64,000 bases of DNA from NCBI RefSeq assembly GCF_000971295.1, contig NZ_LANJ01000046.1, positions 124,001 through 188,000 on the forward strand. The letters run 5' to 3'. The position numbers and the translations under genes were made by a program. The stretch is from Devosia epidermidihirudinis (GTDB lineage: Bacteria > Pseudomonadota > Alphaproteobacteria > Rhizobiales > Devosiaceae). Of this stretch, positions 32,615 to 38,239 are shown piece after piece; position 1 is the stretch's first letter, and each line of letters opens with the position of its first letter. The notes beneath the pieces are model-generated. The model was given only the letters and a program-made list of their open reading frames with translations. It searched no databases and was not told the origin of the DNA.

Positions 32615-35143
32615 TCAGCTTTCTTTGCTGACTTCGTTGGTCTGCTCGACGAGGTCGGGTGGGATGCGCAGAGTGAACAGCATGCCCTTCTCACCGGCCG
32701 GGTCGACAGCGAGCGAAAACGCATTCACGGCCAGCAGCGAGCGCGTCAGCGCCAGCCCGACGCTGGAGCGCACCGGGGTCATCATCTTGCCGTCGCGGCC
32801 GGGGCCATCGCGGAACACCACGAAGCGTTCAGCCATATCCACGGCATTGGTGGAACTGTCGCGGACGTGGATGGCGATACCACCATCGTCTTCGCGCTGC
32901 GCCGAGATCACGGCTGCGGCACCTGTCGGGGTCTGGTCGATGGCGCTGGCAAGCAGGTTCAAAACAGCCTGAGCCAGCGATGCACGGTCAGCCGTGATGC
33001 GGGGCAGGGTTTCGGAGATGGCATTGCGCACGATCACCCGGGCGCTGCTGGCCTGCTGGCGCACCCGAATGACGCAGCTTTCCAGCAGGGCCGTCAGCTC
33101 AATACTAGCGCGCTGCGGCAGGTAGCGACCATCCCGCAGGCGCGCATAATCATCGAGCTCATCGACGAGCGCCGCAATCTCATGGCCAGCCGTTGTGATG
33201 TCTTGGGCATAGCTTTCATAGCGCTCGTTCTCCAGCGCCCCGAAAGCCTCCGTGCGGATCAGGTCCGAGAAGCCGATAATGGTGTTGAGTGGTCGGCGTA
33301 CGCCCCGGCTGATACGTGCCAGCAGTGCTGGATCGGCGTCACTGGGCGCGGCGAGGCGCTGAGGCGCCGTATCGCGATTACGCACGAAGCCGAAATAGCC
33401 CGTGACGATTCCAGCCTGGCCCTGCGCGAACAAAATGATTTCAGCTCTGCCGCTGCCAGACCGGGCGGTGAGGCATGGCCGCGCCGTTTCAGCAAAGCGC
33501 GCCGGGCGTTCGAGGAACTCTCGCAGCCCCGGCAATTCGGTGTCGGCAACCATGGCAGACAGCGACATGCCCAGCGCAGCGTCGGGCTTTTGTTCAAGCA
33601 ACATGGCGCCGCGCGCCGTCATGGCGCTGATCACACCCGCGCGGGTCGCTTCAAAGAAACCATCACCACGCACATCGGCGAACGACTGCGCAAAGGCGCG
33701 CACTGCCCCTTCATGGCCAGTGCGCACTTCGGTCGCGCTGGCGGACAGCATCAGGGCAGGGCGTCCCTGCCAGGAAATTGACTGCAGGCGCGCCGTCACC
33801 GGCACAAGCGTGCCGTCGCGCTGCACCAGATGGTTGACCGGTCCGGCTTCCTGTCCGTCAGGGCCAGCCGCCGGAAACACCGAGGCGAGCCCCGCAGCGC
33901 GCAGGCTTTCGACCGAGCTGTACCCCACCATTTCGGTGATCGCCCGGTTGGCAAACAGCACCTGCTGATCCCGGAACACCAGAATGCCCAGCGGCAAACG
34001 GTTCAGCACCAGCGTTTCGCCGCCCAGATTGATCAGGGAGCCGGACGGCGCTGCCGCTGCGACCGGCGCAACGGGCTGGCGTGCAGCGCTATTGTCGCCG
34101 ACGCGATCATTGAGGATGCGCGACAACTCATCAAAATTATACCGCGACACGCGCTCGACGGTTTCAGTGTCCGGAGCGGCCGCATCCTCAGGCTGTGGTC
34201 CGGGCTCGGTGATCGCCTCGACGATTGTTTCTTCAGAAACCTGATCCAGCCGGGTGAGGTCATCAAGATCCGCTTCAGCGTCGGTCTCTTCAGCTGGTGT
34301 GTCTTCGATCTCGCCCGGGTCCATGATGGCAACGCGGGCGTCGGTCGAATCGTTTTCGTCCATTGTCGCAGCTGTTTCGGGCACTTCGGCGTGCGGCGCT
34401 TCTGGTGGCGTGTCGTCGTCCGCGGTCAGCGGGGTATAGAGCGCCTCGTCGGCGGCGAGCTTGTCGACCAGCCGACTCAGGCGGCTGCTCGTCAAAGGCG
34501 TATCGGACGCAGCGGTGTCCTCGGTCCGCTCCGCCGAATCATCCGCCGTCACCAAAGCCAGCGGCGGCGCAGCGTCCTGTTCGGCTTCTGTCCAGTTCGC
34601 CAGGTCATCCTGGTATGCCGGCGTGGACACTTCGGGAGTGTCGGCGGCAGGGGGCACGATGTCCCCATGATCCACATCGTCATGCCACTCTTCAGGGATC
34701 GTCGGTGATTCGTCCGCAACAGTCACATCGGGCGTTACGGCCTCGTCCACGGTTGCGGGCGCTTTGGCCGCAGCCAGCACCTCGGCAGCGATAGGATCGA
34801 CGCCCACCACCAGCAGAACCTTTTGTCCATCCTGCCAGGTCAGCGGTGTCGTCGCACAGGTGCTCGAAGCGGGTTTGTCGCCGGCCAGGAACTGGATTCG
34901 CGCCAGGCTTGTGCGGCCAAGCGAGCCCAGCCGGATATTGCGCGCGATCTGTCCCTTGATCGGAACAGCCAGCGGCGCTGGTTTCAGCCCGTGCTTTTTG
35001 AGTTTCGCCAGAAACAATCCAGCCGCTGCGTTTTGCCACAGCAGCAGCGAGCCATCCTGCGACCAGAGCCAGGCCGGGCGCGAGTCATCGGCGTGCTGTA
35101 ACACGCGACGAGCGCTGGGCGATGTGATCCAGTCGGCATCCAT
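32615..35143 (-). CDS. PdhS-like sensor protein with a degenerate histidine kinase domain
   Basis: 842 residues from ATG 35141-35143; frame upstream to 35299 is rejected for its rare TTA codon and lack of a ribosome-binding site. The N-terminus SRPAWLWSQDGSLLLWQNAAA matches Hyphomicrobiales PdhS-like kinases. An acidic, low-complexity stretch (about 155-390) precedes a PAS domain (GILVFRDQQVLFANRAITEMVGY). The HisKA region reads ARISRGVRRPLNTIIGFSDLI: the phospho-acceptor His is Arg613. The N box NLLASAIDQTP lacks the Mg-binding Asn, and the G1 box is DSSTNAV. Autokinase activity is therefore unlikely; a scaffold or phosphatase role is possible (inference). No response regulator is adjacent. 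Confidence 0.88.
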   Translation of the reverse strand: MDADWITSPSARRVLQHADDSRPAWLWSQDGSLLLWQNAAAGLFLAKLKKHGLKPAPLAVPIKGQIARNIRLGSLGRTSLARIQFLAGDKPASSTCATTPLTWQDGQKVLLVVGVDPIAAEVLAAAKAPATVDEAVTPDVTVADESPTIPEEWHDDVDHGDIVPPAADTPEVSTPAYQDDLANWTEAEQDAAPPLALVTADDSAERTEDTAASDTPLTSSRLSRLVDKLAADEALYTPLTADDDTPPEAPHAEVPETAATMDENDSTDARVAIMDPGEIEDTPAEETDAEADLDDLTRLDQVSEETIVEAITEPGPQPEDAAAPDTETVERVSRYNFDELSRILNDRVGDNSAARQPVAPVAAAAPSGSLINLGGETLVLNRLPLGILVFRDQQVLFANRAITEMVGYSSVESLRAAGLASVFPAAGPDGQEAGPVNHLVQRDGTLVPVTARLQSISWQGRPALMLSASATEVRTGHEGAVRAFAQSFADVRGDGFFEATRAGVISAMTARGAMLLEQKPDAALGMSLSAMVADTELPGLREFLERPARFAETARPCLTARSGSGRAEIILFAQGQAGIVTGYFGFVRNRDTAPQRLAAPSDADPALLARISRGVRRPLNTIIGFSDLIRTEAFGALENERYESYAQDITTAGHEIAALVDELDDYARLRDGRYLPQRASIELTALLESCVIRVRQQASSARVIVRNAISETLPRITADRASLAQAVLNLLASAIDQTPTGAAAVISAQREDDGGIAIHVRDSSTNAVDMAERFVVFRDGPGRDGKMMTPVRSSVGLALTRSLLAVNAFSLAVDPAGEKGMLFTLRIPPDLVEQTNEVSKES

Positions 35144-35451: not shown

Positions 35452-35528
35452 GCCGCCTTAGCTCAGTTGGTTAGAGCGCTAGATTGTGGATCTAGAGGTC
35501 CTCGGTTCGATCCCGAGAGGTGGTACCA
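35452..35528 (+). tRNA. tRNA-His (anticodon GTG)
   Basis: 77 bases including encoded CCA. Acceptor stem GCCGCCT/AGGTGGT, D arm GCTCAGTTGGTTAGAGC, anticodon stem CTAGA/TCTAG with loop TTGTGGA (anticodon GTG at 35486-35488), and T arm CTCGG-TTCGATC-CCGAG. The discriminator is A73 and the base before position 1 is T, so the G-1:C73 identity pair of most bacterial tRNA-His is absent, as reported for alphaproteobacteria. A matching HisRS gene lies at 40462. Confidence 0.97.
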
Positions 35529-35848: not shown

Positions 35849-36202
35849 ATGACAGTGCCAAGCCTTCGCAGAAAGGTCCTGTTCTCAGCGCCCACCGCCG
35901 CCGTCGTGGTGCCCCTGTTTATGTGCACAGCCCTGAACGCTCTGCTGCGCCCCTGGCTCGCAGAAAGACTCGGCGGCACACTGGTGCTCTTCGGTAACGC
36001 CGTGCGAGGACCTGATCGCTGGTGGTCGTTCGATGCGGCCACACGGGCCGATCACCCGGTGCTCACCGGCTTCCTTAGCACTTCAGATGGTGCGCTCGCC
36101 ATGATGACCTTCGCGCTGATCGCGTTGCTGCTGATCGGTGGATGGGCTTTCGCACGCATCCACCGCCGCTTGGCAAAGCCCAGATCCCGCCCCGACTACT
36201 GA
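35849..36202 (+). CDS. Small membrane protein with two hydrophobic segments, unknown
   Basis: 117 residues. Hydrophobic stretches at about 13-31 (VVPLFMCTALNALL region) and 84-103 (ALAMMTFALIALLLIGGWAFA) with a basic C-terminal tail RIHRRLAKPRSRPDY suggest two membrane spans with both ends inside. AAAGGGGG lies 6 bases before ATG. Its 3' end overlaps the convergent TadG-like gene by 7 bases. No family recognised. Confidence 0.6.
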   Translation: MTVPSLRRKVLFSAPTAAVVVPLFMCTALNALLRPWLAERLGGTLVLFGNAVRGPDRWWSFDAATRADHPVLTGFLSTSDGALAMMTFALIALLLIGGWAFARIHRRLAKPRSRPDY

Positions 36203-38175
36203 GTCACGCGCAGGAAGGACAGCTTGCGACCGATATCGGCAAACACATCCGCGAGGCCGGCGCTGGTCGTCGCCTCGTAGGCGTGCGAAGCGTCCGTCGC
36301 ACAGTTGGCCATGATCTGCTTGGCTGCAGTCAGGTTGGCCACGTCCAGCCCCACGGTATAGACGCGAATACCCACCCGCTTCATTTCCGTACAAAGCTTT
36401 TCGGCCTGGGTGAACGCACTGCCATTGGGCGCATTGCAGGTAATCTTATTGGCAGCGTCGCCACTACCCGTTGTGGAGGATCGGCTGAGTACGCCGCTGC
36501 AAAACGCGGTGTTGAAATCACCATCCGTCATCAGCACGACCGCGCGCAGGACATTGGGCGTGTCCTTGGGTGCAGGCTGGCTTGCGGCGGGCCAAGGCCC
36601 ATTGAAGTTTGGCGAGACCATATACCAGGCCCAGCCGACACCCAGGTGACCAGCCGTCGAGCCCACTGCCGAGAGGTTGTTGGCCAGGTTGTGGAGCGTG
36701 TCCTTGTTGGTCGTCAGTGGAATGACCTTGGTGGTCAGGCACGGATTCGCGCGTGCGTCATACATGCGCCCGAGCCACGTTTCCTGGGGAGGGGCATCGG
36801 TATAGGCATTGGTCGTGCGCTCCGACACGCAGGTGCTTATCGAGTGCCGGCGATCAGTGTTTTTGCCGGTGTTGCCAGACGCCCCCGTATTGGCGTTCTG
36901 AAAGAGAAACTCGGAGCATCCCGAGGTGACACAGGAGACGCTGCCGCCTGAAGTGTAGCTCCCATAGTTGTTCAGGCCGTTGGTTCGGGGCGTGTTGACA
37001 ACGGAAAACGTATTGAGCGTCACATTGGCTATTCGGGACACCAGGAAGGTCGCGCTCGCGGCAGCGGTGCCGCTATCGTCGCCGTTTGGATTGTTGTTAA
37101 ACCACTTCGTGCTGGCAACTTTTGCGTCGTAATTCTGCATCCCGCCGGTGCCGGTGATGTAGACATTTTCGCCATCGGTCAGCCCGTGCCTGTTTGAAGT
37201 CACGACGAGGTCGCACGTCGATACCAGGCACTTTTGCACGGTGCCACCAGATCCTGCCTTCAGTTTCGATCCGTTGAACGCCTTACCGTCAGGCGTCTGC
37301 AACGTGAATTTTCTCGGGGATGTAACGGCCCTGACCACAAGTATCGTGTTGCTAAGTCCCGTCATGGTCGAGACGTTGGAGACGTAGATCGTGTCACCCG
37401 CCTTGAGGCTATGGTCGGTGCTTGTGGTTACCTCCACAGGGTCTGTCGCTGACGTGGTGGTGATGGTTTTCGCACTGTCTGCCGACCATGCGACGCTGGT
37501 AATACCCGTGGGTTGCCTGATGCCGCCGCGGATCGCGCCGGCATAGGTCCCGAGGTTCACACTCGCTGAATAGGGAACGATGGCCATCTTGGAATAGGTT
37601 GGCGTCTGCTCGTCCTGCACCACGATGTCGATGAGAGTGTTCAAGGCGTCTTTCAGCGCATCAAGCTTGGTGCGTTTGCCGGTGCCGCCTGCGCCTGCCG
37701 AGATGAGTTCGGACATGGATCCGGTCACGTCGATTGCCACAGCCACTTCAACGTTCAGCGAACCGCGCGTCGTTTCTGACTTGACGCGGGCGCCAAGCGT
37801 TTGGACACCGACCAACGAAACGAAGATCGTTGGCATCTCGATCTCGGCGTCAATGAACAGCGATCCAAGAACCTTGTCGATCTTGACGTCTGTAATGTCG
37901 GCTGTGACCCGTGTGTCACCGATACGATCGACGATCAAAGCCAGGGCGCGCTTTTGTATGTCGTCCTTGCTCGCCTTCATGATTTCCGGCTGCAGCGCCA
38001 GGGCGGCCGCGTCGAGCGCAATTTGAGCGCGGCTTCGCGTTTGCTCGAGCGACACATAGTCGACCACAGCCCCACCGAGCGCGATGATGACGACAGCCAT
38101 GATGCCAAACATCACGGCAAATGCACCTCTTTCATCCCGACGAAATCGGGAGATCAACTGGAGGATTGAAGTCAT
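36196..38175 (-). CDS. TadG-like pilus-assembly/von Willebrand protein with inserted repeat region
   Basis: 659 residues. The N-terminus FRRDERGAFAVMFGIMAVVIIALGGAVVDY is the TadE/TadG-type signal-anchor seen in Flp pilus pseudopilin-like proteins. A von Willebrand A domain follows with the MIDAS-like AIDVTGSMS (Asp149) and TDG in VVLMTDGDFNTAFCSG. Between about residues 245 and 395 the domain is interrupted by two similar units of the pattern VT..xHxLxxGxxVYIxGxxxM...F, which resemble FCCH-type beta-barrel repeats of E1-like and phage proteins. Mature protein would be periplasmic with several Cys. No other tad/cpa genes are nearby. ATG 38173-38175 was chosen. Confidence 0.85.
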   Translation of the reverse strand: MTSILQLISRFRRDERGAFAVMFGIMAVVIIALGGAVVDYVSLEQTRSRAQIALDAAALALQPEIMKASKDDIQKRALALIVDRIGDTRVTADITDVKIDKVLGSLFIDAEIEMPTIFVSLVGVQTLGARVKSETTRGSLNVEVAVAIDVTGSMSELISAGAGGTGKRTKLDALKDALNTLIDIVVQDEQTPTYSKMAIVPYSASVNLGTYAGAIRGGIRQPTGITSVAWSADSAKTITTTSATDPVEVTTSTDHSLKAGDTIYVSNVSTMTGLSNTILVVRAVTSPRKFTLQTPDGKAFNGSKLKAGSGGTVQKCLVSTCDLVVTSNRHGLTDGENVYITGTGGMQNYDAKVASTKWFNNNPNGDDSGTAAASATFLVSRIANVTLNTFSVVNTPRTNGLNNYGSYTSGGSVSCVTSGCSEFLFQNANTGASGNTGKNTDRRHSISTCVSERTTNAYTDAPPQETWLGRMYDARANPCLTTKVIPLTTNKDTLHNLANNLSAVGSTAGHLGVGWAWYMVSPNFNGPWPAASQPAPKDTPNVLRAVVLMTDGDFNTAFCSGVLSRSSTTGSGDAANKITCNAPNGSAFTQAEKLCTEMKRVGIRVYTVGLDVANLTAAKQIMANCATDASHAYEATTSAGLADVFADIGRKLSFLRVTQ

Positions 38176-38239
38176 CACGCAGCACCCATAAGTCTTTCGC
38201 TCCATTTCGGAGCGCACTAAGTCTTGCTCAAAAACCTTA

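Follow-up and report, generated by a model that had tools for sequence, protein, structure and literature searches.

The stretch analyzed here (the window) comprises 64,000 nucleotides of Devosia epidermidihirudinis contig NZ_LANJ01000046.1 (positions 124,001 to 188,000) and carries on its minus strand a gene for an 842-amino-acid protein, which we read as a pseudokinase descended from the histidine kinase PdhS. The frame is open over 842 codons from an ATG at position 35143. An alternative TTG start would give 894 amino acids, and the chosen ATG falls on an invariant methionine column in a 75-sequence alignment. The gene and the features belonging to it are as follows, in window coordinates.

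32615 to 35143, minus strand: pseudokinase gene, PdhS orthologue, 842 amino acids
34754 to 35143, minus strand: N-terminal PAS-like domain (residues 1 to 130), common to PdhS of other families
34034 to 34753, minus strand: acidic linker (residues 131 to 370), mostly of low confidence (predicted disordered)
34097 to 34147, minus strand: conserved pre-PAS helix SRYNFDELSRILNDRVG (residues 333 to 349), within the linker
33734 to 34021, minus strand: PAS domain (residues 375 to 470), from Pfam under the cutoff, a profile search, and the predicted fold
33374 to 33715, minus strand: degenerate second PAS-like domain plus a connecting helix (residues 477 to 590), from the predicted fold
33128 to 33331, minus strand: DHp dimerization domain (residues 605 to 672), from the HisKA match (32.7 bits) and the predicted fold
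33284 to 33313, minus strand: H box with R613, G614, R616, and R617
32648 to 33112, minus strand: CA-like domain (residues 678 to 832), from Pfam and the predicted fold
32921 to 32965, minus strand: N box without the catalytic Asn (S733)
32840 to 32860, minus strand: G1 region without glycines, D762 kept
32750 to 32770, minus strand: G2 region with S793 and S794, G796 kept
35452 to 35528, plus strand: tRNA-His(gtg), divergent upstream, the synteny anchor of PdhS

The H box reads ISRGVRRPLN. Alignment with its counterpart in the best solved relative (by sequence match in the PDB), ISHEIRTPMN, places R613 at the phosphorylated histidine, G614 at the acidic H+1 position, and R617 at the H+4 threonine. 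Many kinases need that threonine to act efficiently as phosphatases, according to a passage of PMC7003649; as judged from these positions, the losses extend to the phosphatase residues. In the N box (NLLASAIDQTP), S733 replaces the catalytic Asn and N729 is retained. The G1 box (DSSTNAV) retains Asp762 and has lost its glycines, and the G2 region (VRSSVGLAL) retains G796 and has lost the two earlier glycines. An earlier note, made from the letters of the window and silent on the strand, had described all three kinase boxes as decayed, and the alignment bears this out, with Asp762 and G796 remaining. By its residues, then, the gene encodes a conserved pseudo-histidine kinase in which the phosphoacceptor and ATP-binding residues are absent and whose loss is shared by its orthologues. 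Because Asp762 and G796 remain, we call nucleotide binding unlikely and no more than that.

The loss extends across nearly the whole family. Matches at E values up to 1e-40 were found in 127 of 136 Devosiaceae genomes, and fetching the gene from all 127 (from G118 as a fragment only) gave 128 open reading frames (ORFs), G158 having two. The DHp-CA core is contained in 127 of these (L280, from G118, ends before it), and 126 are readable at position 613 (L252 begins after it). Position 613 is Arg in 122 of the 126, His in three (L074, L106, and L109), and Gln in one (L097). R616 is found in 126/126 sequences and R617 in 121/126; A732, S793, and G796 are present in 127/127, D762 in 125/127, and S733 in 123/127, the other four having Asn. 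The lid-region residues F774, V776, and F777 are invariant. Nine of the 136 genomes had no match at 1e-40. When the threshold was relaxed to 1e-10, G064, G065, G130, and G139 gave N-terminal fragments whose frames run on to the edge of the sequence fetched, and only other kinases matched in G066, G069, G098, G131, and G159 (completeness, 55 to 98%). A single-sequence scan of genome contigs found no relative, and an alignment scan found 90, of which 80 were kept; as the patterns of the latter favor Arg-type sequences, it served structure alignments and never counts of the loss.

The three His-bearing orthologues carry this residue though their other boxes are partly lost. On a 42-tip family tree, parsimony needs 3 changes and an Arg root, and a scenario without regain requires 7 losses; by parsimony, His may thus have been lost once and regained, with repeated loss as the alternative. 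The His-bearing g40 lineage lies on a long branch. The two ORFs of G158, a small metagenome-like assembly, are an Arg-type (L108) and a His-type (L109) sequence on two contigs, perhaps in a mixed bin.

Within the genus, Arg occupies position 613 in 73/73 readable sequences through four codons (CGC, 44; CGT, 13; CGG, 13; CGA, 3), and S733 is encoded by AGC/AGT and also by TCG. We calculated ratios of nonsynonymous to synonymous substitution (dN/dS) by NG86 with seven relatives per gene, leaving out an eighth fetched relative, G022; dS was often >1, so that the ratios are rough and meaningful to an order of magnitude only. They were 0.019 to 0.055 for DHp, 0.044 to 0.132 for CA, and 0.040 to 0.101 for the two together. 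The N-terminal domain gave 0.045 to 0.099 and the linker 0.22 to 0.42 (one pair saturated). For comparison, the cores of the genome's DivL and of an intact 513-amino-acid kinase gave 0.114 to 0.150 and 0.046 to 0.059, respectively, and the dead module as a whole lies between them. The dead module is under purifying selection in Devosiaceae.

The earlier note had supposed that the protein is maintained and had proposed a comparison of orthologues and dN/dS. That comparison agrees with it: the frame is intact, the loss is kept in 122/126 family cores and 73/73 genus sequences, and the ratios are low. Intact orthologues in sister strains together with relaxed selection, named in the note as marks of a dying gene, were not seen; the loss is shared and selection is purifying. 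A dying gene would account for the loss of all boxes and for the long stem branch of the clade, but it is hardly credible given the retention of Arg613 through four codons and the DHp-CA ratios, and we rejected it for the genus on the codon counts and dN/dS. The stem of the Devosiaceae clade measures 1.12 substitutions per site, whereas the tips inside the clade lie on average 1.05 from its root. Of 233 core columns, 14, among them 613, 617, 732, 733, and 793, hold one fixed residue in Devosiaceae (at least 93%) and a different one in PdhS of the order (at least 84%). The branch lengths suggest a burst followed by constraint, the pattern that a change of function would leave, with any overall speeding up of the lineage included in the stem.

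In position, the gene is orthologous to the PdhS kinase of other Hyphomicrobiales, a cell-cycle sensor widespread in that order. A tRNA-His gene lies divergently upstream in 10 of the 13 order PdhS loci scanned, 0.3 to 2.3 kb from the frame and with intervening genes possible, and in three loci (L046, L049, and L053) PdhS is followed by a homologue of the solute-binding protein gene found downstream in the window, with a permease homologue farther on. At an E value of <1e-3, a family profile of residues 1 to 130 detected 11 of 14 order sequences (best, 3e-15) and the PAS profile detected 10 of 14 (best, 2e-24); a profile of the linker detected 0 of 14. In a kinase tree built from one alignment under one model, Devosiaceae (100/100) and the 13 order PdhS sequences split from the six other kinases of the genome and from L052 with support of 90.4/96. 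The assignment of orthology rests on synteny, the N-terminal domain, and this tree. With the NCBIfam PdhS model NF041593 (cutoff, 2000), four order genes score 440 to 722 bits and the window protein 149.7 bits, all under the cutoff. Shared with PdhS of Hyphomicrobiales, including Brucella PdhS, are the place beside tRNA-His, the grouping in the tree, and the order of domains (N-terminal PAS-like, acidic linker, PAS, DHp, CA). The Devosia protein differs in having lost the kinase and phosphatase residues, in its shorter linker, and in its degenerate second PAS domain. It is PdhS by descent and, with the His, N, and G boxes not intact, is predicted not to be a PdhS kinase by chemistry. We regard its identity as a conserved PdhS-derived pseudokinase as highly probable.

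Outside the family, the kinase residues are kept. The 13 order PdhS sequences and the best 30 of a second search gave 43 rows and 38 distinct loci, five genomes having been fetched twice; since the 30 were taken from the top of the 122 genomes that matched an intact query, they lean toward intact genes. His is present in 37 of the 38 loci, and the Asn of the N box, Asp and Gly of G1, and the three glycines of the G2 region are present in 38/38. L052, a 535-amino-acid order kinase that groups elsewhere in the tree, has His and Asn and was excluded from this count. The one locus without His, L050 (G047, contig C6), is a PdhS of another family with Leu in its place (SLEVRTPLN) and intact N, G1, and G2 boxes, possibly a separate, minimal loss. 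With an intact PdhS as the query, 122 of 150 order genomes matched at 1e-60, and 0 of 5 Devosiaceae among those listed (G000, G009, G133, G137, and G154) did; thus, no intact replacement copy was seen in these five. We also considered a duplicate intact PdhS in the window's genome, and none was recognized.

The earlier note's view that the PAS and dimerization segments remain holds. HisKA scores 32.7 bits (cutoff, 26.9); PAS_8 scores 19.4 bits, below its cutoff of 21.8, and a PAS fold is predicted. Next to DHp, where the second PAS-like domain lies here, Pfam detects a PAS domain in L045, L053, and L074. HATPase_c scores 24.6 bits (cutoff, 26.4) for the protein alone and 28.7 bits in a whole-genome search. 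The N-terminal domain is predicted confidently (confidence score [pLDDT], 91.9), and its top structural matches are PAS domains, with a Z score of up to 7.5 (root mean square deviation [rmsd], 3.0 over 89 residues), short of 8, the level beneath which the program cautions that a match may reflect just a common arrangement; the top Foldseek rows are also PAS domains (E = 8e-4). The DHp-CA module is likewise predicted confidently, with Z scores of 19.9 against YycG (rmsd, 2.7 over 211 residues), 18.3 against DivL (rmsd, 4.7 over 216), and 16.0 to 16.5 against RetS, the last lying inside the range of generic kinases. This module drives the whole-model fold comparison, in which generic kinases, DivL, and RetS are not told apart. 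Hydropathy gave no strong membrane segment: the maximum over 19 residues, 1.74, lies inside a predicted PAS-like domain, and two windows just exceed 1.6.

The linker had been described as long, acidic, and added. It is acidic, with 28% D/E and 3% K/R over residues 120 to 330. By the definition applied to other PdhS proteins (residues 119 to 375), it has 257 amino acids with 25% D/E and 5% K/R, and the linkers of ten order PdhS proteins from other families have 334 to 1,120 amino acids with 13 to 24% D/E. The acidic linker is inherited from PdhS and is not a Devosia addition. The pattern of the pre-PAS helix within it, SRYNFDELSRILNDRVG, is present in 117 of 128 family ORFs, and the helix is a candidate interaction motif. 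The corresponding regular expression had no match in 14 order sequences; several of these have, by eye, a similar amphipathic stretch, and we therefore do not call the helix new.

In the genome (3.86 Mb), CckA (1272.5 bits; cutoff, 1000) and PleD (657.1 bits; cutoff, 474) are present, and a 123-amino-acid receiver adjoining PleD is, from its sequence and place, what we take to be DivK. There are also several PdhS-related kinases with intact His boxes and a Tyr-type DivL (L153), whose best solved relative is DivL itself (4q20; 123.7 bits) and which keeps the motifs NLLSNA, DEGPGL, and GAGLGL. The Tyr is found in DivL here and in that of 8/8 relatives tested. Two kinase-dead proteins, a Tyr-type DivL and a dead PdhS orthologue, therefore coexist in one genome. 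The suggestion that the window gene encodes a kinase-dead sensor in a DivL-type network fits this set, whereas its placement as a DivL-like member does not, given the separate DivL and the descent from PdhS; as a DivL orthologue, the gene, with its Arg613, was rejected. The Devosia protein resembles Caulobacter DivL in being a kinase-dead histidine kinase fold that selection maintains alongside the DivK-CckA network and in keeping an Arg three residues past the phosphoacceptor. It is unlike DivL in having Arg and not Tyr at the phosphoacceptor, in its changed N, G1, and G2 boxes, and in its ancestry.

Strong selection on a module without catalytic residues suggests that the protein now works by binding and not by phosphate transfer. 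The best mechanism, to which we give a probability of roughly 45%, is a dimer acting as a reader or sink of phosphorylated DivK (DivK~P). The DHp would still dock DivK, and R613, with its neighbors R616 and R617, would point at the phospho-aspartate pocket of DivK. The dead module would then sense DivK~P, take it out of circulation, or keep hold of DivK and would thereby change, under the control of the PAS domains, the amount of DivK reaching DivL and the active DivJ/PleC-type enzymes. Such a way of working would be like that of DivL but separately arisen. We infer dimerization, the absence of catalysis, DivK docking, and the contact of R613 and R617 with the pocket; the link to DivK is drawn from the descent from PdhS and the retained DHp. 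Passages of the literature offer parallels. Caulobacter DivL is described as having no kinase or phosphatase activity and binding DivK~P, and its R553A mutation as slowing growth (both in a passage of PMC4211667). R553 is three residues past the phosphoacceptor and corresponds to R616 here. The C-terminal part of Brucella PdhS is stated to bind DivK (passage of PMC2957392). In an older survey (PMC2877005), DivL orthologues without the kinase domain always occur where DivK is absent, a pattern that fits the keeping of a dead module for DivK.

Several observations weigh against such a reader. R616 is also Arg in 14/14 order sequences, and its conservation is thus not specific to a reader role. 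The best PDB sequence match of the module is RetS (67.4 bits), ahead of HK853 variants (52.7 bits) and DivL (47.2 bits). In the genome-wide search with the PdhS model, five other kinases (174.8, 160.2, 151.9, 139.8, and 121.1 bits) outscore the window gene (111.8 bits), because the model rewards intact boxes. The DHp is only moderately like that of intact PdhS, with 7 of 13 strongly conserved columns kept in helix 2 and 5 of 6 in helix 1 after the H box, and the orthologues L074, L106, and L109 have His, two of them with the N-box Asn too. In Agrobacterium PdhS2, mutating His and Thr singly had differing effects and mutating both had a minimal effect, according to a passage of PMC7003649, which calls for caution, as a PdhS that is dead both as kinase and as phosphatase may have little to do.

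The sequence match to RetS raises another explanation, namely, that the dead DHp heterodimerizes with an active PdhS-related kinase (e.g., those of 513, 559, or 623 amino acids) and blocks or redirects it, leaving DivK untouched. Pseudomonas RetS, the closest solved sequence, controls another kinase by contact, and its heterodimerization with GacS is an established precedent (passage of PMC12189002). Possible partners with intact boxes exist in the genome, and DHp is the most constrained part of the protein. However, the fold scores do not set RetS apart from generic kinases such as YycG, and a pure dimerization partner would presumably need no fixed Arg at the response regulator-facing positions 613 and 617. 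RetS also differs from the Devosia protein in keeping its DHp His and in being a hybrid kinase. The Devosia heterodimer is hypothetical, and we consider this explanation unlikely. We would give no better odds to a scaffold in which the N-terminal PAS-like domain, linker, and PAS domains recruit a metabolic or polar partner and DHp-CA just dimerizes. Constraint on the N-terminal domain is of about the same strength as on the module, the pre-PAS helix is conserved, and Brucella PdhS binds FumC via its amino-terminal part (same passage of PMC2957392); against this, the CA-like domain is strongly kept too, by the ratios above, and a mere dimerizer should not need the invariant F774, V776, and F777.

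Direct binding of CckA by a DivL-like allosteric partner, the proposal of the earlier note, appears quite improbable. PAS domains are predicted, CckA is present, and the PAS domains of DivL are required for CckA binding (passage of PMC11500502), but a Tyr-type DivL stands in the same genome and in 8/8 relatives, and the protein descends from PdhS. Residual activity, as an ATP/ADP sensor or weak enzyme that still binds nucleotide, is very improbable: D762 and G796 are kept across the family and the fold is predicted intact, but this protein has lost the N-box catalytic Asn, the glycine of G1, and the two earlier glycines of the G2 region, and the phosphoacceptor, H+1, and H+4 residues are replaced.

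Were the DivK~P reader correct, the protein might be a second DivK pseudokinase, with a PdhS origin separate from that of DivL and fixed in nearly the whole family. Its Arg in place of the phospho-His would make the kinase-response regulator interface a reader of the phosphorylated receiver, and in Devosia cells two dead readers, a Tyr-type DivL and an Arg-type PdhS, would sit on one switch; we put this forward tentatively and with some doubt. The textbook case of a histidine kinase that became a sensor of a response regulator is DivL. Another such case, of independent origin, placed beside the same network, common to nearly a whole family, and with intact orthologues in neighboring families, would be a natural before-and-after comparison, in which the residues that turn a kinase interface into a reader, and the rewiring of DivK-CckA-CtrA after the loss of a DivK enzyme, could be tested directly. 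The pseudokinase version of ChrS in Corynebacterium glutamicum is likewise a histidine kinase without catalysis, in another organism and another pathway (PMC9491836). A full-text literature search, outside which most subscription papers lie, returned no paper with both PdhS and Devosia, and for PdhS with pseudokinase it returned only an unrelated review with a title on reactive oxygen species in cancer. In a wider search, the Devosiaceae family of dead PdhS was not described among the matches listed.

Next to this locus, a TadG-like gene on the minus strand (window positions 36196 to 38217) matches Tad (PF13400) with 34.6 bits. Its product also matches the FCCH domain of the ubiquitin-activating enzyme E1 at residues 261 to 310 (34.5 bits; cutoff, 29.5).

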